Source: Elizabethkingia occulta (GTDB lineage: Bacteria; Bacteroidota; Bacteroidia; Flavobacteriales; Weeksellaceae). From it: a stretch of DNA of 64,000 bases. A program made the position numbers and the translations under genes. The notes under the pieces are model-generated. The model was not told the DNA's origin and did not search any database. It was given only the letters and a program-made list of their open reading frames with translations. Shown piece by piece: positions 56 through 25,092 of this stretch (position 1 is the first letter of the stretch; each line of letters opens with the position of its first letter). The stretch is taken from positions 186,001-250,000 of the forward strand of contig NZ_MAHX01000021.1 of assembly GCF_002023715.1 (NCBI RefSeq), in the 5' to 3' direction.

Positions 56-280
56 TTACATATCACATGTTGCTTCATCAGTGTCTGATGAATTTTTTTC
101 TTCGGTAAAGGAAGAGTTATTGGGAAAAGAGCCTGTTTTAGAATAAAGTGGATCTGTTTTTTCCTTTTGTTTTAAAAAGATAACATTTAATTTGGGTGGT
201 AAATAACCCTTTTTAGTTTTTTTATCAGATAAGGATTCTTCAGGGGCAGGTTCGGAAGGATTGGTATTAGTTGTATCCAT
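56..280 (-). CDS. Small YLPP-motif protein
   Basis: A 74-residue protein of unknown function. It has an acidic, Ser/Thr-rich N-terminus, then KKGYLPPKLNVIFL, then a polar tail ending in DEATCDM. The KK(G/E)YLPP block is shared with the 62-residue protein at 21413-21601. In that second locus the small protein directly precedes a FISUMP/fimbrillin-like lipoprotein, so a partner gene may lie just beyond the left edge here. There is no signal peptide or membrane segment. From general knowledge, short proteins with a YxxP motif are common beside Bacteroidetes surface-protein genes. It follows the HdeD-like gene by 48 nt on the same strand and is probably in its operon. Function is not assigned. 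Confidence 0.7.
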   Translation of the reverse strand: MDTTNTNPSEPAPEESLSDKKTKKGYLPPKLNVIFLKQKEKTDPLYSKTGSFPNNSSFTEEKNSSDTDEATCDM

Positions 281-328: not shown

Positions 329-916
329 CTACTTTAATTCCCTACTCAGTATTTTTATTGATTTGTAATGTTTGTTAAGCTTTTTAAACTCCGATACAAG
401 TAATATATAGCTGAGTGCGATCATAATAAATACTCCTCCAATAATGAAGCTTGTTGGAATCAAATCAAATACCGAATGAGCAATGAGTATAATTGAAAAG
501 AGAATAGCTAAACCGCTTGATCTGGCTGGTATTGCCCAATGAACCGAATCATGATTTCTAAGATCTGTTGCCAGGCTTAATAATAAAAAGCCTTGACATA
601 AAGAAATAAGTCCTAATATGGAAGTCGTATAATTTTCATGAGTGTATGGATAAGATATGGTGATAATTATTGCTATAGACAAAGTATAATATAGATACCA
701 ATTCCAAGCTTTTATACTTTTGCTGTTTTGCAGGAAAAATAAAGCTTCAATAATTGATGATAAGCTAAAAGCGATTCCTAATGGTATATAAATAGATTTG
801 TATGATATTATAAAACTTAAAATTGCAGCTGTTATAAATATAAAACTATTTAATATCAGTAGTGTAGAACCTTTTACAGTAGATCTTATTGATATATTAA
901 GAGAGTGTAAATTCAT
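329..916 (-). CDS. HdeD/DUF308-like six-helix membrane protein (copy 1)
   Basis: A 195-residue integral membrane protein with about six hydrophobic segments spaced evenly along its length and a short basic C-terminal tail (EFKKLNKHYKSIK). The size, helix number and pairwise helix layout resemble the HdeD/DUF308 family of small inner-membrane proteins, some of which act in acid stress; this is a fold-level guess. It is a clear paralogue of the protein at 21980-22567, sharing the block around TDLR/IDLKRH and the ending SEFKK(L/V)N. The ATG at 916 aligns with the start of the paralogue. A terminator-like hairpin and a predicted operator-promoter lie upstream (1000-1259), and the YLPP protein lies downstream. 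Its physiological role is unknown. Confidence 0.7.
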   Translation of the reverse strand: MNLHSLNISIRSTVKGSTLLILNSFIFITAAILSFIISYKSIYIPLGIAFSLSSIIEALFFLQNSKSIKAWNWYLYYTLSIAIIITISYPYTHENYTTSILGLISLCQGFLLLSLATDLRNHDSVHWAIPARSSGLAILFSIILIAHSVFDLIPTSFIIGGVFIMIALSYILLVSEFKKLNKHYKSIKILSRELK

Positions 917-999
917 ATAATTATTTTAGAAATAAATAACCAGTTCGTTTCATATATATTGACAAAATCCTGTTAATTCTTAATGGAAGAATTATTTTA

Positions 1000-1025
1000 T
1001 AAAAAGAGCGGGGAAACCCCGCTCT
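1000..1025 (-). terminator. Intrinsic terminator of small RNA 1 / LuxR A
   Basis: Perfect 9-bp stem AGAGCGGGG (1005-1013) with CCCCGCTCT (1017-1025) and a 3-nt loop. On the minus strand a run of U residues follows. It sits between the LuxR gene and the HdeD-like gene, so either it ends the small transcript or read-through past it controls the downstream genes. Confidence 0.8.
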
Positions 1026-1204
1026 CCAACTGTTTCCAGTTTTCACAAACAAATAACAAATAAATGATGATCATGTTATTTTCTTTAATTCCCTTTATTG
1101 TATAATAATGGCTAATAGTATTGTTCTTCTCATTCAGTATTTGAATTGTATTGCTATCATAGTTTCTGATTGAGTTTTAATAATTTATAGTAATATTTAT
1201 TTTC
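1000..1204 (-). ncRNA. Predicted small RNA or attenuated leader 1
   Basis: A leftward transcript is predicted to start just after the -7 box at 1211-1218 and to end at the strong hairpin at 1005-1025. Near its 3' end it carries ATTTGTTTGTGAAA (complement of 1041-1054), identical over 14 nt to the unit at 22754-22998. A stem-loop AACTG-GAAA-CAGTT (1028-1041) follows, then the terminator. It contains only tiny ORFs (8, 12 and 25 codons; the last at 997-1074), none of which resembles an ORF in the sister units. It may be a free sRNA or a 5' leader attenuating the HdeD-like gene. The ends are inferred. Confidence 0.5.
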
Positions 1205-1210
1205 TGTTTG

Positions 1211-1259
1211 TAAAAGTATATATCATTATAACGGAAGGAAATAGCACGAATCTGTCATT
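1211..1259 (-). promoter_or_regulatory. Operator-promoter P1 (20-bp inverted repeat plus -7 box)
   Basis: Read on the minus strand, 1259-1240 is AATGACAGATTCGTGCTATT. Exactly 21 nt further on is TACTTTTA (1218-1211), one base from the Bacteroidetes -7 consensus TAnnTTTG. The distal half-site AATGACA is identical in all five copies in this window; the promoter-proximal half is degenerate here. It lies downstream of LuxR A and points at the small RNA and HdeD-like gene. Confidence 0.65.
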
Positions 1260-1284: not shown

Positions 1285-2085
1285 TTAAGCCGGAAGTATA
1301 CAATTGTTTATACTAAAGGCTATAAGCTCTGTAGAAGTTTTTGTCTTTGTTTTTTTTCTCAGGTTACGTTTATGGTTTTCAACTGTATGATAAGATATAA
1401 ACAAATGCTCTGCTATTTTTGGACTGTTCAGTCCCTGAGCCATTAGCCTCAATATTTCTTTTTCGCGTTGTGTAACATAAGGTTTGGATTCATCCTGCTT
1501 TGTATTATTTGAGGTCATGTGTTTAGAATATTGAATTTCTTTACCCTCATCATCTAATATTGAAAGCAATGGCATCTCATTTATTGGAAAATGGGATAGA
1601 TCATAAATAACAATTAATGAGCTTTGTATCTGGTTGTATTTATTAAAACATTGTTTAGGAGCCTGAATGAGCACCCAACGATAATTGTTTTCATGATTAA
1701 GCATTCGGACATAAAAATTAAAACGCAGATTATTTTTCTCCGATTTACGCATATTCTTATATATTCTTGCTGAAGAGACTAAAGCAGAAAGCAGGTATTG
1801 AGCATCTTCCGGATGTATCAAATCTATAAAATGCTGTATGTGCTGGTTATTTAACTCTTTTTGATTATATGGAGTATGAAGCTCTATATTAGAACTTACA
1901 ACTTTTGTTTCCATATTGATGCAATCAACTATAAACCAGAAATAATGACCAACAGCAAAGTTTTTAATGCTTTCTGTAATACCGGAATACATTACAGAGC
2001 TGTCTTTTTCATCTGCTTTATTGTAGATTGAAAAATACTCATGGAATTGTTCTGTAGTGATAGGTATAATCTTTTTCTCAGCCAT
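1285..2085 (-). CDS. PAS-LuxR transcriptional regulator A
   Basis: A 266-residue regulator. Residues about 40-175 form a PAS-like sensor region with FWFI, HPED, the YRW core and YDLSHF, the same landmarks seen in its two paralogues at 23342 and 24286. Residues about 200-266 are a NarL/FixJ-type LuxR helix-turn-helix: REKEILRLMAQG, then IAEHLFISYHTVENHKRNL, ending KTKTSTELIAF. There is no receiver domain and no membrane segment, so it probably senses a soluble ligand or partner protein. It is transcribed towards the HdeD-like gene, with operator P1 just past its stop. It is a candidate binder of the five-copy inverted repeat; the ligand is unknown. Confidence 0.85.
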   Translation of the reverse strand: MAEKKIIPITTEQFHEYFSIYNKADEKDSSVMYSGITESIKNFAVGHYFWFIVDCINMETKVVSSNIELHTPYNQKELNNQHIQHFIDLIHPEDAQYLLSALVSSARIYKNMRKSEKNNLRFNFYVRMLNHENNYRWVLIQAPKQCFNKYNQIQSSLIVIYDLSHFPINEMPLLSILDDEGKEIQYSKHMTSNNTKQDESKPYVTQREKEILRLMAQGLNSPKIAEHLFISYHTVENHKRNLRKKTKTKTSTELIAFSINNCILPA

Positions 2086-19531: not shown

Positions 19532-21394
19532 TTATGGAGTAGGAGCATCAACTTTTATACAACGAACACTATTCAACATATTTCCAGTTGGAACAGGAGT
19601 GACTGTGATAGGATTAAGAGGGAGATCAACATTATTATTAATCAGTACATAGTATGCTCCATCGATAAGTGTTTTATCAGAAGTCCAATAAGCTCCCGAT
19701 GGAACTCCAACTCCAATATTATCTCCAGTTTGATTATTATTAAGTTTAATAAAATATCTAAATCCTGCTAATGGAATACGCAATTTCAAGTTTTTCCCAC
19801 TTTTACTTCTAAATTCAAAGGCTTGTTGGAAAAAGGGAATATTAAAACCACCTATAAAAGTAGAATTATTACTGTCAGTAGTACCAGATCCTGCGTATGC
19901 TCCATATTTTACAATATCATTACCACCAGATTTTAGTCCCAGCCATTCACTTCTGGTAGGAACTCTGTATCCATTACTACAGGGATTGTTCTCCCCTCCG
20001 TCCGTTACATTATCCCAATATCTGTTATTTACACCAGGACTTGTCATTAAACCTGAACCTGTTGAATTATATTCCTGAAAGGGATAATTTTTATTTCCTG
20101 AATTAGCCTGGTCGTCCACCATCGATAATCCCTGATTAGGTTTTACACCCCATGCATATTTTCCACCGGCTGCCGACTTAAGGATAACTGCTTGGGGATA
20201 AGTATTAACTGTAAAAATATCGGTTTTAAATGGATCATTAGTTCCGTCTGAGGTTCTGTCTGCACCTAAATTATAACAGTCAAATATTCTGTCTACACCA
20301 TTTACACTGGCACCACATTTACCTTCAACAATATTTAAGTTGGTTTTGTATCCTGGTTTTATAATAAATTTACCCGTTACAGGCCTTGCACCTGTTGCAG
20401 TTGTTGCGATTGTTGCACTAAATGTTCCGACTGGAAGGACTCCAGCTGTTCTTTCCAAGCCTCCGTTTATCCTGACCGGAGCAAAAGTTGCATCCCCTGT
20501 TGTACCACTAATTGTAGCACTACCAAGATCTACATCACCAGTTACAGAGCCACTAGTGGCTACGTAACCTTCTTGTGTTATAACACCTGTATTCAGTGCC
20601 ACAGTACCCTGAGCAAAATTGCCACCTATTTTTGCACCGGTTATACCTGTAATATTATTTGTAAAATTAACACTGGTAACCACCTGAGTGGTTTTGTGTT
20701 GCAATCTGATCGTGAAAGGATTTACGCCCATATCTCCGTTAGGTTTGAACTCTTTATATTTTCTGTACATAAAGTCCAGCTGAAGATCTGTAGCTGGCGT
20801 TAGATAATCGTAAGTAATGCTGGGAGCATGTCCTGGTAAAGTAGGTGTTCCGTTGGAATATACCACAAGATCATAGAGAGCATTGTGGGTCAATTGTAAT
20901 TCAGTACCATCAGTCGACTTTAGAGTTCCGTCTGTCTGTACAAGATAATCTTTTTGTGCCTGTATATCAGTAGTACTCCCTGCAGTGTAAGCAACAATTC
21001 GTACCCTTGCTCCGGGTTTAAGGGGAAGGGGAGAGATATTCCCATCAGGAATAGTTGGTCCACTAGCAGCTACTGCATTGGATTTTGTATGAGTTGGGGA
21101 ATTTTCTGTAACAGCTTCTATAGAGATAAATGTACTGGGATCTATCATTGTAGTACTTTGCATTCTGATGTTGTCTGCTGCTACATTCATTCTGTTGGCA
21201 GATGCCTGTGGCTGCGGATTACCAGTCTGGCTTCCATATTCCACGCCATCCAGTTTTACAGAAATAGTTACGGGACCTCCTGTTGCCAAAGTATTTTCTG
21301 TATCATTGGTACGACAGGAAGTGGTCCATAGAAATGAGGTTACGGCTGCTAAAGTTGTAATTCTTTGTATCGATTGTTTCATTTTTTCGTTCAT
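19532..21394 (-). CDS. Fimbrillin-like lipoprotein with FISUMP domain
   Basis: A 620-residue surface lipoprotein (Cys27 in WTTSCRTND). The N-terminal two thirds has a beta-rich, Ala/Thr/Gly-rich pattern like Bacteroidetes fimbrillins (TISVKLDGVEYG, LKPGARVRIVAYTAG, LVVYSNGTPTLPG, then a FMYRKYKEF block). The C-terminal third is a FISUMP-type region (Fibrobacter succinogenes major paralogous domain): NPCSNGYRVPTRSEWLGL, then GAYWTS and the closing SVRCIK. It is predicted to be exported, lipidated and displayed, possibly as an adhesin or pilus component. It starts 18 nt after the YLPP protein and shares its operon, driven by promoter P3. Confidence 0.78.
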   Translation of the reverse strand: MNEKMKQSIQRITTLAAVTSFLWTTSCRTNDTENTLATGGPVTISVKLDGVEYGSQTGNPQPQASANRMNVAADNIRMQSTTMIDPSTFISIEAVTENSPTHTKSNAVAASGPTIPDGNISPLPLKPGARVRIVAYTAGSTTDIQAQKDYLVQTDGTLKSTDGTELQLTHNALYDLVVYSNGTPTLPGHAPSITYDYLTPATDLQLDFMYRKYKEFKPNGDMGVNPFTIRLQHKTTQVVTSVNFTNNITGITGAKIGGNFAQGTVALNTGVITQEGYVATSGSVTGDVDLGSATISGTTGDATFAPVRINGGLERTAGVLPVGTFSATIATTATGARPVTGKFIIKPGYKTNLNIVEGKCGASVNGVDRIFDCYNLGADRTSDGTNDPFKTDIFTVNTYPQAVILKSAAGGKYAWGVKPNQGLSMVDDQANSGNKNYPFQEYNSTGSGLMTSPGVNNRYWDNVTDGGENNPCSNGYRVPTRSEWLGLKSGGNDIVKYGAYAGSGTTDSNNSTFIGGFNIPFFQQAFEFRSKSGKNLKLRIPLAGFRYFIKLNNNQTGDNIGVGVPSGAYWTSDKTLIDGAYYVLINNNVDLPLNPITVTPVPTGNMLNSVRCIKVDAPTP

Positions 21395-21412: not shown

Positions 21413-21601
21413 TTAGTAAATAACCGGTACTTCTTGTGTATCTTCATGTTCCCATTCAGTTTGCGTGTTATCGGGTTTTGGAGCTACAATAACCGAATTG
21501 GCGGCGATACCATATTCCATTTCTATTAAATCCATCGTTACGGTAGGAGGCAGGTATTCCTTTTTAGAATTGTCTTTGTTGGTCTCATTTTTTTCCATCA
21601 T
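21413..21601 (-). CDS. Small YLPP-motif protein (copy 2)
   Basis: 62 residues: a charged N-terminus, then KKEYLPPTVTMDLIEMEYGI, then AANSVIVAPKP and an acidic tail. The YxxPxV block followed by an acidic stretch and a small-residue IAANS segment is the standard form of short proteins encoded beside Bacteroidetes surface lipoproteins; copy 1 at 56-280 lacks the IAANS part. There is no Sec signal peptide. It could be a chaperone-like partner, a processed peptide or a precursor; there is no direct evidence. The stop is 18 nt before the FISUMP lipoprotein gene. Either of two adjacent ATGs could start it. Confidence 0.75.
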   Translation of the reverse strand: MMEKNETNKDNSKKEYLPPTVTMDLIEMEYGIAANSVIVAPKPDNTQTEWEHEDTQEVPVIY

Positions 21602-21888: not shown

Positions 21889-21937
21889 CAAAGATGAAAT
21901 ATTGAGATAATAAAAAAAATGACAGATATGTGTCATT
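21889..21937 (-). promoter_or_regulatory. Operator-promoter P3
   Basis: On the minus strand 21937-21918 is AATGACACATATCTGTCATT, a near-perfect inverted repeat. After exactly 21 nt comes CATCTTTG (21896-21889), which fits TAnnTTTG except for its first base. It points at the YLPP/FISUMP operon. Confidence 0.7.
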
Positions 21938-21979
21938 TTTTTTGATATTGTTTTTTAATTATTTATAGCATACAATATT

Positions 21980-22567
21980 TTATTTAGGGATAGCCAGTTT
22001 TCTTACTCTTTTATAGAATAAATTGACTTTTTTAAATTCTGATGAGAGCAAGATTGAAGAAATCCCTGTGGACATAAATACAGCTGTAATAATTGGCCCT
22101 GCAGAATTATCCGGGGATGATGAGCCTGCCAATAAAATAACCGAAAATAATATCCCTGCCATACTTACTAAAGCTATCTTTCCCCATTTTTGATGTTCAT
22201 GTCTTTTTAGATCTATCGCTGTACCCGTTAGTATAATGGATCTTAGAAGAGAAACAAATCCAATATAAAAGACAACAGAATCGCCTGTATAGAAAAACAG
22301 GTAAATAGCCATACCTAGAATAAGTATTCCGTATACCATATACCACCCCCAGCCATTGATGGCTTTACGATTGCGTAAAGTGAATAATAATATGGTAAGT
22401 CCAGATGTTATAATGGTAAGTCCGGAGACTATTTTAAAACTCATATAACTGTCAGCGTATAAAGAGAAAATCCAGATACTGGCAATAATATAAATAATAC
22501 CATTTATTAATGGAAGGTACCAGCCTTTTAAAGGCATTTTTATTGTTGTATTGAAAGAAGCAGACAT
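21980..22567 (-). CDS. HdeD/DUF308-like six-helix membrane protein (copy 2)
   Basis: 195 residues from the ATG at 22565-22567, the same length as copy 1 at 329-916, to which it aligns from the start. The frame extends upstream to a TTG at 22654, which I reject because that stretch is hairpin-rich leader. About six hydrophobic helices are evenly spaced. Shared landmarks with copy 1 are the N-terminal amphipathic segment, the (S)xxxLLLxxT(D/I)LK(R)H turn and the ending SSEFKKVNLFYKRVRKL. HdeD/DUF308 membership is a fold-level inference. P3 lies just after its stop and P2 about 470 nt before its start. The role is unknown, perhaps membrane stress. Confidence 0.72.
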   Translation of the reverse strand: MSASFNTTIKMPLKGWYLPLINGIIYIIASIWIFSLYADSYMSFKIVSGLTIITSGLTILLFTLRNRKAINGWGWYMVYGILILGMAIYLFFYTGDSVVFYIGFVSLLRSIILTGTAIDLKRHEHQKWGKIALVSMAGILFSVILLAGSSSPDNSAGPIITAVFMSTGISSILLSSEFKKVNLFYKRVRKLAIPK

Positions 22568-22613
22568 TCTATAATAAAGTTTAACCGAAATTAAATAGCT
22601 GTTACATAAAAAT

Positions 22614-22635
22614 GGGTAAACCCATAGGTTTACCC
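22614..22635 (-). promoter_or_regulatory. Leader hairpin before HdeD-like copy 2
   Basis: Perfect 9-bp stem GGGTAAACC (22614-22622) with GGTTTACCC (22627-22635), followed on the minus strand by ATTTTTAT, so it looks like a weak intrinsic terminator. It lies 47 nt before the start codon. A longer-range pair, AAAACTGTTAA/TTAACAGTTTT (22637-22647 and 22701-22711), encloses the adjacent leader. Confidence 0.5.
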
Positions 22636-22753
22636 GAAAACTGTTAACTAACAAAAAATATGATCTAATTAACGAATCCGGTACTCTGCCGAAAGAGATT
22701 AACAGTTTTAAGTAAAAAGTGATTAATTGATTTAAAAAAATGAGTGTTTTCAG

Positions 22754-22793
22754 AAAAAAACCGGGCGGAGAATGATGATGATGAGTCCGCCCG
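22754..22793 (-). terminator. Intrinsic terminator of small RNA 2
   Basis: 8-bp G/C-rich stem CGGGCGGA (22762-22769) with TCCGCCCG (22786-22793) around a 16-nt loop with repeated CAT/ATG triplets. On the minus strand a run of seven T residues follows. Confidence 0.85.
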
Positions 22794-22870
22794 ACAACCT
22801 TATGGTTTCACAAACAAATGATTTTGATTTTTTTATCCCAAGTGTGTATTTCTGAGAATCTATTGTTTAT

Positions 22871-22984
22871 TTATTTTACGGGAATGTAATTTTTATTCAG
22901 TATCAATGTACAGTTTAACCCGTATAATTCTATATCCTGCAATTGCTGAAGCAGGTTTTGCTTCTGGGTATTTATTCTTTTCAT
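22871..22984 (-). CDS. Possible 37-residue peptide inside small RNA 2
   Basis: An ATG-initiated frame of 37 codons ending at TAA 22871-22873, starting about 15 nt after the predicted transcription start. The product would be polar and Gln-rich at first (KRINTQKQNLLQQLQ), with a mildly hydrophobic end. It has no signal peptide and no visible ribosome-binding site. No equivalent frame exists in the two sister units, so it may be fortuitous. Confidence 0.25.
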   Translation of the reverse strand: MKRINTQKQNLLQQLQDIELYGLNCTLILNKNYIPVK

Positions 22985-23003
22985 TATTTGTATTTGTTAC
23001 GTG

Positions 23004-23052
23004 CAAAGGTATAGGATGGAGATGTACAACGAAATAACAGATATGTGTCATT
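23004..23052 (-). promoter_or_regulatory. Operator-promoter P2
   Basis: On the minus strand 23052-23033 is AATGACACATATCTGTTATT. Exactly 21 nt later is TACCTTTG (23011-23004), a perfect TAnnTTTG -7 box. It is aimed at small RNA 2 and the HdeD-like copy 2. Confidence 0.75.
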
Positions 23053-23085
23053 TTTTATAACTATTTTTTTAATGAACATCAATCA

Positions 23086-23208
23086 TAAAGGCAGCTATTA
23101 TAGCTGCCCGTGAAAAAAACTGTAAACAGTTATATAAACAAATAGGTATTACTGATTTAGAATCCTGATTATATATCAGCTTTATATTCGATATAATAGC
23201 CTAAACCA
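23086..23208 (-). ncRNA. Predicted small RNA 3
   Basis: A leftward unit between P4 and P2. It has the shared core ATTTGTTT (within the complement of 23135-23143), then four nt, then the stem-loop AACTG-TTTA-CAGTT (23118-23131) followed by a T run, then a second hairpin GGCAGC/GCTGCC (about 23090-23108) and TTT. The stem-loop has the same arms as unit 1 with a different loop, a covarying-like change. No ORF longer than a few codons is present. The 3' end is uncertain because either hairpin could terminate. Confidence 0.5.
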
Positions 23209-23214
23209 TGAATT

Positions 23215-23263
23215 CAAAATTAGGTTTTATTACCATGCTATTAAATAGCATATATGTGTCATT
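23215..23263 (-). promoter_or_regulatory. Operator-promoter P4
   Basis: On the minus strand 23263-23244 is AATGACACATATATGCTATT, and exactly 21 nt later TAATTTTG (23222-23215), a perfect -7 box. The plus-strand direction towards LuxR B has no such box at that spacing, so the promoter faces small RNA 3. It could still affect the divergent LuxR B gene 79 nt away. Confidence 0.7.
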
Positions 23264-23341
23264 TTGCGGTCAAATTACCAATTGATAACCCACAATAACA
23301 TTATTTATATATGATGTTATTTACTTTTATAAAAAATTTCC

Positions 23342-24142
23342 GTGAAAAAGATCAAACCGATAAATTCTGATAAGTTTTTTACTTCAATATCTGTTAAAAA
23401 TGATAGTAAAGAAATATTATATTATGATTATTTCCAAAGTACAATAGAACAAATCCGTAATTATACAATAGGACCATATTTTTGGATCATTTCAAATAAT
23501 TCCAAAATGAAGATTGAATCTATTAGTGATGCTGTAGAGCAACTGACCCCTTATACGAAGGAAGAATGGATGGCTTCTGCTCCTCAATTTTTTATTGAAG
23601 CATTTCACCCTGAAGACAGAGCCTACCTGATGGCTGCGTTTGCATTTGCTGTCAAAATGAGACTTGGAATGGATGAAGAAAGAAGAAAGCATCTCAGAAT
23701 TAATTTCTATGCAAGAATGCTGGATGTGGATTGTAACTACAGATGGATTCTTTTGAATTCCCCAAAGATTTACATAAATGAAATGAACGAAATAGAAGCT
23801 TCTTTAACTGTTATTTATGATTTGTCACATTTGAATATTTTCAATTTTCCTCTTCTTACGGCAATGGATCAAAGTAATCGAAAAGTTCAGTATTATAAAC
23901 ATTTTGACAGGGAAATAAAGAAAGTTGGCGAAGAATTATCAGCACCGGTTATTACCAAACGTGAAAAAGAAATTTTAAGTCTTATGATCCGTGGGTTTAA
24001 TACACCTCAGATTTCACAGCAATTATTTATATCCTATTATACTGTGGAAAATCATAAACGTAACCTTAGAAAGAAAACCCAAACCAAAACATCCTCCGAA
24101 CTTATTGCCTTTATAATTAAATATAACCTGTTATTTATTTAA
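23342..24142 (+). CDS. PAS-LuxR transcriptional regulator B
   Basis: 266 residues, starting with GTG at 23342; MKKIKPIN aligns with the N-termini of its paralogues. The PAS-like sensor part (about 35-175) has GPYFWII, FHPEDRAYL, YRWILLNSPK and YDLSHL. The C-terminal NarL-type HTH (about 200-266) is REKEILSLMIRGFNTPQIS, then LFISYYTVENHKRNL and KTSSELIAF. It is a paralogue of A and C, with the recognition helix nearly the same in all three, suggesting that they share a binding site. It is divergent from small RNA 3 and 143 nt upstream of LuxR C. The sensed signal is unknown. Confidence 0.85.
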   Translation: MKKIKPINSDKFFTSISVKNDSKEILYYDYFQSTIEQIRNYTIGPYFWIISNNSKMKIESISDAVEQLTPYTKEEWMASAPQFFIEAFHPEDRAYLMAAFAFAVKMRLGMDEERRKHLRINFYARMLDVDCNYRWILLNSPKIYINEMNEIEASLTVIYDLSHLNIFNFPLLTAMDQSNRKVQYYKHFDREIKKVGEELSAPVITKREKEILSLMIRGFNTPQISQQLFISYYTVENHKRNLRKKTQTKTSSELIAFIIKYNLLFI

Positions 24143-24220
24143 TTATGTAGTATTTGTATTGAAATAAACCCATTATTATTACATCTCTTATAAAATTTGA
24201 TCGGTATTTTTTACTGAAAA

Positions 24221-24269
24221 AATGACACATATCTGTCATTTCATGCCTTTTATAGCTTCAATACTATTG
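24221..24269 (+). promoter_or_regulatory. Operator-promoter P5
   Basis: AATGACACATATCTGTCATT at 24221-24240, identical to P3 in promoter orientation, then exactly 21 nt, then TACTATTG (24262-24269), one base from TAnnTTTG. It is the only copy on the plus strand and lies just before LuxR C, leaving a leader of only about 10 nt. Confidence 0.72.
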
Positions 24270-24285
24270 CAGGACAAACACTTGT

Positions 24286-25092
24286 ATGAAAAGAATACCT
24301 GCAATTAATATCCAGCACTTTGTGGAGGGTATTAGAATAAATGATGGAAATAATATAAATGATAATAAAGATTATTTTTCTTATTTCTCGGATGCTATTG
24401 ATAGGGCAAAGAATTTTGCAATAGGTCCGTTTTTTTGGTTTATTCCAAACAATTATCAGTTAAAAATCAAATGGGTAAGTAATAATGCCGGCATGCTTAC
24501 ACCTTACAGTAATGAGGAATGGTACAACAAAGGGCCTGAGTTTTTTGCCGATCAGCTGCATCCGGACGATCGGGATTATGTTTTGTCAGCCTGCATTTTT
24601 ATTTATAAGATTTTTGCAGACACCAAAACGATAAATAAAGAAAATTTTGTATTTAATATATACGCCCGGTTTCTGGACAGGCATAAGGAATACAGATGGA
24701 GGGTTATACAAGTCGCAAAGATCTATATGAATGAACAGAATCAAATAGAAAGTGCATTGCATATTATCTATGACCTGTCGCATTTACAGATCAAAAACAT
24801 GCCTTTACTTTCACTGGTAGATATAAATAATAACCATGTTCAGTATTTTAAAAGCTTTGAAGAAAGTATTGAGCCTGAGTATGTTGATATACCAGTAATA
24901 ACCAAGCGCGAAAAAGAAATTCTCCAGTTAATGGCACAGGGAGATAATACCCCTATAATTGCCCAAAAACTATTTATATCTTATCACACAGTACAAAATC
25001 ATAAAAGGAATCTGAGGAAGAAAACGAATACTAAAACATCTTCGGAGCTTATTGCTTATGTGATTAAATACAATATATTATTTATCTCCTGA
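24286..25092 (+). CDS. PAS-LuxR transcriptional regulator C
   Basis: 268 residues, ATG start. The PAS-like region (about 38-178) has GPFFWFIPNN, LHPDDRDYV, YRWRVIQVAK and YDLSHL. The LuxR-type HTH (about 202-268) has REKEILQLMAQGDNTPIIA, LFISYHTVQNHKRNL and KTSSELIAY. Compared with A and B the recognition segment changes TVENHK to TVQNHK. It carries its own copy of the inverted-repeat promoter (P5), so it is likely a target of the family, by autoregulation or under A or B. No receiver domain is present, so it is not a classical response regulator. Confidence 0.86.
   Translation: MKRIPAINIQHFVEGIRINDGNNINDNKDYFSYFSDAIDRAKNFAIGPFFWFIPNNYQLKIKWVSNNAGMLTPYSNEEWYNKGPEFFADQLHPDDRDYVLSACIFIYKIFADTKTINKENFVFNIYARFLDRHKEYRWRVIQVAKIYMNEQNQIESALHIIYDLSHLQIKNMPLLSLVDINNNHVQYFKSFEESIEPEYVDIPVITKREKEILQLMAQGDNTPIIAQKLFISYHTVQNHKRNLRKKTNTKTSSELIAYVIKYNILFIS

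Follow-up and report, generated by a model that had tools for sequence, protein, structure and literature searches.

The window analysed here, a 64,000-nucleotide stretch of the Elizabethkingia occulta genome (C21:186001-250000 in a 4.15-Mb assembly of 21 contigs), encodes three PAS-LuxR regulators, designated LuxR A (23342..24142, + strand, GTG start), LuxR B (24286..25092, + strand, 268 aa) and LuxR C (1285..2085, - strand, 266 aa), which have 45-50% identity to each other's reference. All three carry a GerE helix-turn-helix domain (PF00196, 53-56 bits against a cut-off of 23.5), and the PAS_3 domain (PF08447) scored above its cut-off in LuxR A and just below it in LuxR B and LuxR C. No Pfam match to an autoinducer-binding (acyl-homoserine-lactone) domain was found in the three proteins up to E = 1, nor was any match to a NarL/FixJ receiver domain, and their NCBIfam matches were restricted to the helix-turn-helix part. 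An AlphaFold model displayed a PAS fold joined to a LuxR helix-turn-helix (pLDDT 82.9), with PAS folds among its structural matches; that the PAS domain acts as the sensor is an inference.

The regulators are accompanied by genes for two HdeD-like membrane proteins (protein 1, 21980..22567, - strand, DUF308 below cut-off; protein 2, 329..916, - strand, without a confident Pfam match), two YLPP-type small peptides (peptide 1, 21413..21601, - strand; peptide 2, 56..280, - strand) and a FISUMP-like lipoprotein of 620 aa (19532..21394, - strand). With FISUMP membership defined as a TIGR02145/PF09603 match above cut-off, the window lipoprotein fell below the TIGR02145 threshold (15 bits versus 41.65, a weak E = 0.031); its E. 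miricola homologue (L104:1174-2784) exceeded the Pfam cut-off (49.2 bits versus 33.9).

Five copies of a 20-nt palindromic operator, P1 to P5, were confirmed in the window at the coordinates and on the strands originally predicted, all of them intergenic, and the predicted gap of 21 nt between the operator and an 8-nt TAnnTTTG-type -7 box proved exact in 5/5. P1 (AATGACAGATTCGTGCTATT, 1240..1259, - strand) has luxR C directly upstream and lies 21 nt from the box TACTTTTA (1211..1218, - strand), from which transcription is expected to start at approximately position 1206 if the -7 box occupies -12 to -5 (PMC9723704). P2 (AATGACACATATCTGTTATT, 23033..23052, - strand) is paired with TACCTTTG (23004..23011, - strand), and P4 (AATGACACATATATGCTATT, 23244..23263, - strand), which has no coding gene directly downstream, with TAATTTTG (23215..23222, - strand). 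P3 (AATGACACATATCTGTCATT, 21918..21937, - strand) and its box CATCTTTG (21889..21896, - strand) precede YLPP peptide 1 as the first downstream gene and the FISUMP-like lipoprotein as the second. P5 carries the 20-mer of P3 in the opposite orientation, 2.3 kb away (AATGACACATATCTGTCATT, 24221..24240, + strand), and its box TACTATTG (24262..24269, + strand) is followed 16 nt further on by the luxR B start codon, a position from which autoregulation is predicted.

The bare pattern AATGACA-N6-TGTCATT, allowing up to three mismatches, was not enriched in the window (10 observed versus 6.3 expected), and weight was therefore placed on copies with 0-2 mismatches and on the composite of operator and -7 box. 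Pattern searches of the whole genome returned eight composite matches with at most one mismatch, one of them P5 read on the opposite strand, compared with none for a reversed-pattern control. The genome holds eight operator copies, five in the window and one each on contigs C2, C5 and C7. The original remark that no copy lies elsewhere in the window held, but it did not extend to the genome, which has three further copies. Random scatter of the repeat, coding DNA included, would have counted against the prediction; looked for genome-wide, it was not seen, as the copies are few and all intergenic. The C2 (C2:258318) and C5 (C5:22989-23037) copies are perfect composite matches and precede operons in which, as in the window, a YLPP-type peptide is followed by a large FISUMP-like lipoprotein; these operons have no adjoining luxR of the PAS-LuxR subfamily. 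At the C7 copy (C7:11149-11197), where the -7 box is poor, the gene downstream encodes a 780-aa protein containing a mechanosensitive-channel domain. Across six Elizabethkingia genomes, composite matches numbered three in G002 and seven in G003, where they are upstream of YLPP peptides, FISUMP-like proteins, luxR or HdeD-like genes; three other genomes had none, and these also lack PAS-LuxR. G002 additionally contains a broken luxR of the subfamily adjoining an HdeD-like fragment (L112:5482-6445).

Within the family, the palindrome with at most one mismatch was present in 21 of 247 genomes, and the reversed control in one. When carriers of PAS-LuxR were defined by profile matches at E < 1e-60 (16 of the 247), the palindrome was found in 15/16 carriers versus 6/231 other genomes (Fisher p = 2.2e-18, a value that overstates independence because the genomes are related). 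In the sixteenth carrier, G171, a variant with three mismatches was found close to the luxR genes. Of the six palindrome genomes without PAS-LuxR, five (G074, G108, G142, G219 and G221) lack a -7 box 21 nt away, and their palindromes were taken as chance. The remaining one, Chryseobacterium G201, bears a site whose -7 box is perfect (C4:1226598-1226646, L100) and no PAS-LuxR at E <= 1e-20, which can be read either as recent loss of PAS-LuxR or as the work of another regulator. Two weak Chryseobacterium PAS-LuxR homologues had no site.

A scan of named genomes located the subfamily in Elizabethkingia, Chryseobacterium, Kaistella, Pedobacter, Lacihabitans and unclassified Bacteroidota. The palindrome was observed upstream of luxR, and divergent from it, at 5/5 loci in Pedobacter and 3/3 in Lacihabitans, and likewise in Kaistella jeonii and several Bacteroidota metagenome-assembled genomes, in each case at a distance of roughly 60-190 bp from the luxR match. 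The gap to TAnnTTTG or GAACTTTG is 21 nt at all the Pedobacter and Lacihabitans loci and at most loci of this set as a whole. A site was present within 6 kb at 31/42 Bacteroidota PAS-LuxR loci versus 0/21 other LuxR loci, and shuffled loci gave none; some genomes of the 11/42 loci without a site in this range bear one elsewhere. Lower-scoring class-level PAS-LuxR homologues had a site in 0/11 loci, which spanned only 3.7 kb versus 12 kb for the positives. Where readable, the recognition helix of these homologues reads TVxxHRKN versus TVENHKRN in the subfamily, a contrast that is partly by construction, since the named-genome loci were picked in part by the TVENHKRN peptide. What lies downstream varies with the genus. 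Elizabethkingia has YLPP/FISUMP-like lipoproteins there; Chryseobacterium has secreted QVGINT-type proteins and small HTH proteins as well as luxR itself; Pedobacter and Lacihabitans have proteins that are secreted or act in signalling. Cell-surface output is the theme shared across genera, as judged from signal sequences by inspection and without a formal test.

Recurrence of the palindrome beside one PAS-LuxR family across three orders makes that family the likely, though untested, DNA-binding activator. Another regulator encoded nearby could in principle bind the site instead, such as the small HTH proteins of the MDFKNIHIG... family in Chryseobacterium operons, which sit between the site and luxR, and the G201 site without PAS-LuxR would be compatible with this. 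We nevertheless regard it as improbable, because in Pedobacter and Lacihabitans the site is directly upstream of luxR. The MDFKNIHIG... family itself was rejected as the regulator, since it is missing from 6/6 Elizabethkingia and 4/4 Kaistella genomes tested and occurs in 1-17 copies in most site-free Chryseobacterium genomes. Members of this multi-copy family were observed downstream of secreted QVGINT-type proteins at L098, L099, L102, L114 and L118.

The geometry of the sites bears on how a PAS-LuxR protein would act. From 64 distinct composite sites we derived the consensus AATGAyAGATATCTryyATw, which is nearly palindromic throughout, with the six central bases constrained rather than free and, as originally remarked, the distal half-site more conserved than the proximal half. 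In a set of 33 centres drawn from palindrome-only matches, selected irrespective of the -7 box and read in both directions, -7 boxes matching all six key bases occurred 14 times at 21 nt versus once across 40 other spacings. A scan of Pedobacter for any palindrome combined with a perfect -7 box retrieved, at 21 nt, only the operator word. The TTG expected at the -33 place, near the operator edge, was present in only 6 of the 64 sites and absent in 58. At some sites in Chryseobacterium and Kaistella (L094, L103, L121 and L139), the -7 box was seen as the variant GAnnTTTA, exactly 21 nt away and near a start codon.

The sigmaA -7 box of Flavobacterium psychrophilum spans -12 to -5 (PMC9723704). 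On that numbering the operator would extend from about -53 to -34 with its centre near -43. Class II activators and LuxR act from approximately -43. The sites show class II-type features, namely a fixed distance beside the -35/-33 region and a missing -33 element, from which we infer activator-dependent transcription at class II-type sigmaA promoters. Repression by a PAS-LuxR protein bound to the same palindrome deserves consideration, given that many palindromes close to promoters serve as repressor sites and that P5 precedes a regulator gene; however, the palindrome lies upstream of the -7 region without covering it, its spacing is rigid to the base, it presents a constant helix face to polymerase and the -33 element is missing, and we hold this reading to be quite unlikely. 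Still harder to sustain is the proposal that the repeats are crossover sites for a promoter-inverting DNA invertase of the kind that acts at surface loci of Bacteroides. The identical 20-mers of P3 and P5 do flank 2.3 kb in opposite orientation and surface-protein genes are typical invertase targets, but several genomic copies are single, nearly every copy retains the -7 box at 21 nt, no invertase was noticed next to the repeats, and the association is with luxR. An alternative-sigma-factor promoter, with the proximal palindrome half serving as a -35 element, would account for the rigid spacing and for the place of that half near -33, but can be virtually dismissed, as the -7 box follows the ordinary sigmaA consensus, conservation is stronger in the distal half and the site is two-fold symmetric.

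Collectively, co-occurrence, the common loci in three orders, the fixed 21-nt spacing, the near-constant lack of the -33 TTG and the failure of the rival HTH family favour a single activator that works from around -33/-43 and for which the PAS-LuxR proteins are the candidates, in support of the original interpretation. We therefore consider it highly probable that the palindrome is the operator of a single PAS-LuxR (GerE-type) activator subfamily. This support is entirely comparative, in the absence of binding, start-site, expression or mutant data. Counting against it are the G201 site, the 11/42 loci lacking a site in the 6-kb range, the want of a coding gene immediately after P4 and the poor -7 box of the C7 copy.

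Not every site leads to a simple operon. P1 and P2 do not run straight into a gene; approximately 150-180 nt separate them from a conserved block that precedes the HdeD-like genes. The P1 block (ATTTGTTTGTGAAA followed by a small hairpin and an intrinsic terminator, 999..1054, - strand) also occurs in E. miricola (L105) and G002 (L113), and the P2 block (ATTTGTTTGTGAAACC with a hairpin and a strong terminator, 22754..22819, - strand, z = -2.86) in E. miricola (L104). Exact matches to the block core in the genus were confined to P1/P2-type loci (two in the window genome, two in G003 and one in G002), and the terminator hairpin varies in sequence while the hairpin itself is kept. A 9-bp hairpin, GGGCAGCTATAATAGCTGCC, followed by TTTAT (23085..23109, - strand, z = -4.77) is a possible P4 terminator. 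P1 and P2, and perhaps P4, thus appear to make terminated transcripts rather than simple mRNAs. Without transcript data, the P1 product remains a candidate, either as a small RNA of about 200 nt or as a leader of the HdeD-like gene; the P1 and P2 blocks are paralogous and non-coding and represent a candidate new small RNA family, and neither matched Rfam above the gathering score. When small-RNA seeds from P1 and P2 were examined for pairing at translation starts (of luxR, YLPP and FISUMP-like genes), the outcome was uneven: the C2 YLPP start ranked first of 135 for the P2 seed and that of luxR C second for the P1 seed, with the remaining targets scattered through the ranking.

Two further features were observed between P4 and the P2 block. 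A 19-base palindrome, GGCAGCTATTATAGCTGCC, lies at 23091-23109 between P4 and P2. The P2 transcript would contain a 37-aa open frame, MKRINTQKQNLLQQLQDIELYGLNCTLILNKNYIPVK (22871-22984, - strand), with the luxR-like start MKRI, whose E. miricola counterpart has only 17 aa.

Under the PAS-LuxR activator model, a dimer would bind the 20-bp palindrome centred near -43, an inferred geometry, and may contact sigmaA RNA polymerase so as to substitute for the missing -33 element in a class II-type manner. Such binding is predicted to activate YLPP-peptide/FISUMP-like surface lipoprotein operons from P3, C2 and C5, to create positive feedback through luxR B from P5, and possibly to yield, from P1, P2 and, less certainly, P4, short transcripts that terminate ahead of the HdeD-like genes. 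To our knowledge, only a small number of regulator-operator pairs have been described in Bacteroidota. In the literature searched we found no report of the operator sequences and no paper joining these subjects into a PAS-LuxR regulon in Chryseobacterium. Owing to the precise site, the exact geometry, the small predicted regulon and the parallels in Pedobacter and Lacihabitans, a single purified protein and a handful of probes would suffice to test the model. If it is true, many unannotated surface-protein genes gain a regulon, and a possible small-molecule signalling route emerges in Elizabethkingia, Chryseobacterium and their relatives.

Several known systems resemble parts of this arrangement. 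The lux box of LuxR/TraR is a palindrome of about 18-20 bp bound by a GerE-domain dimer near -42. The sites described here share with it the palindrome size, the GerE domain of the proposed regulators and the inferred position near -42, whereas the regulators carry PAS in place of the acyl-homoserine-lactone domain, the DNA word is another one and the promoter is of the Bacteroidota sigmaA type. With the Bacteroidota sigmaA promoter (TAnnTTTG, PMC9723704), the operator-bearing promoters have the -7 box consensus in common; they differ in that the -33 TTG is missing in 58/64, with the palindrome in its place. The best structural match to the AlphaFold model is 3CLO, a putative LuxR-type regulator of Bacteroides thetaiotaomicron (19% identity), with a profile match over the helix-turn-helix and the last part of the sensor domain.

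The next-best solved structures are those of VqmA (6ugl, 6kju and 6ide; Foldseek E = 1.8e-7), a PAS-LuxR receptor of Vibrio cholerae that activates the small RNA VqmR (PMC8284805). VqmA has the PAS and LuxR helix-turn-helix architecture and fold of the window proteins at 13-16% identity, and its low whole-chain TM-score is attributable to differently placed domains. Sequence orthology was not met, as the hmmsearch match is confined to the helix-turn-helix (E = 2.5e-4). In the window, luxR C is directly upstream of a promoter that seemingly yields a terminated short RNA, although this is unproven, and the luxR C-P1-terminator arrangement, if not the transcript itself, is kept in three Elizabethkingia genomes; unlike in the VqmA-VqmR system, sites in the window genome also precede surface-protein operons and a luxR gene. 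We raise only as a tentative possibility that Bacteroidota possess a self-contained VqmA-VqmR-like circuit, in which small-molecule sensing and palindrome binding would control surface adhesin-like operons and an undescribed small RNA family built of the ATTTGTTTGTGAAA block, hairpin and terminator, with positive feedback on the regulator's own gene. The resemblance to VqmA is one of architecture, possibly also of circuit, rather than of orthology.
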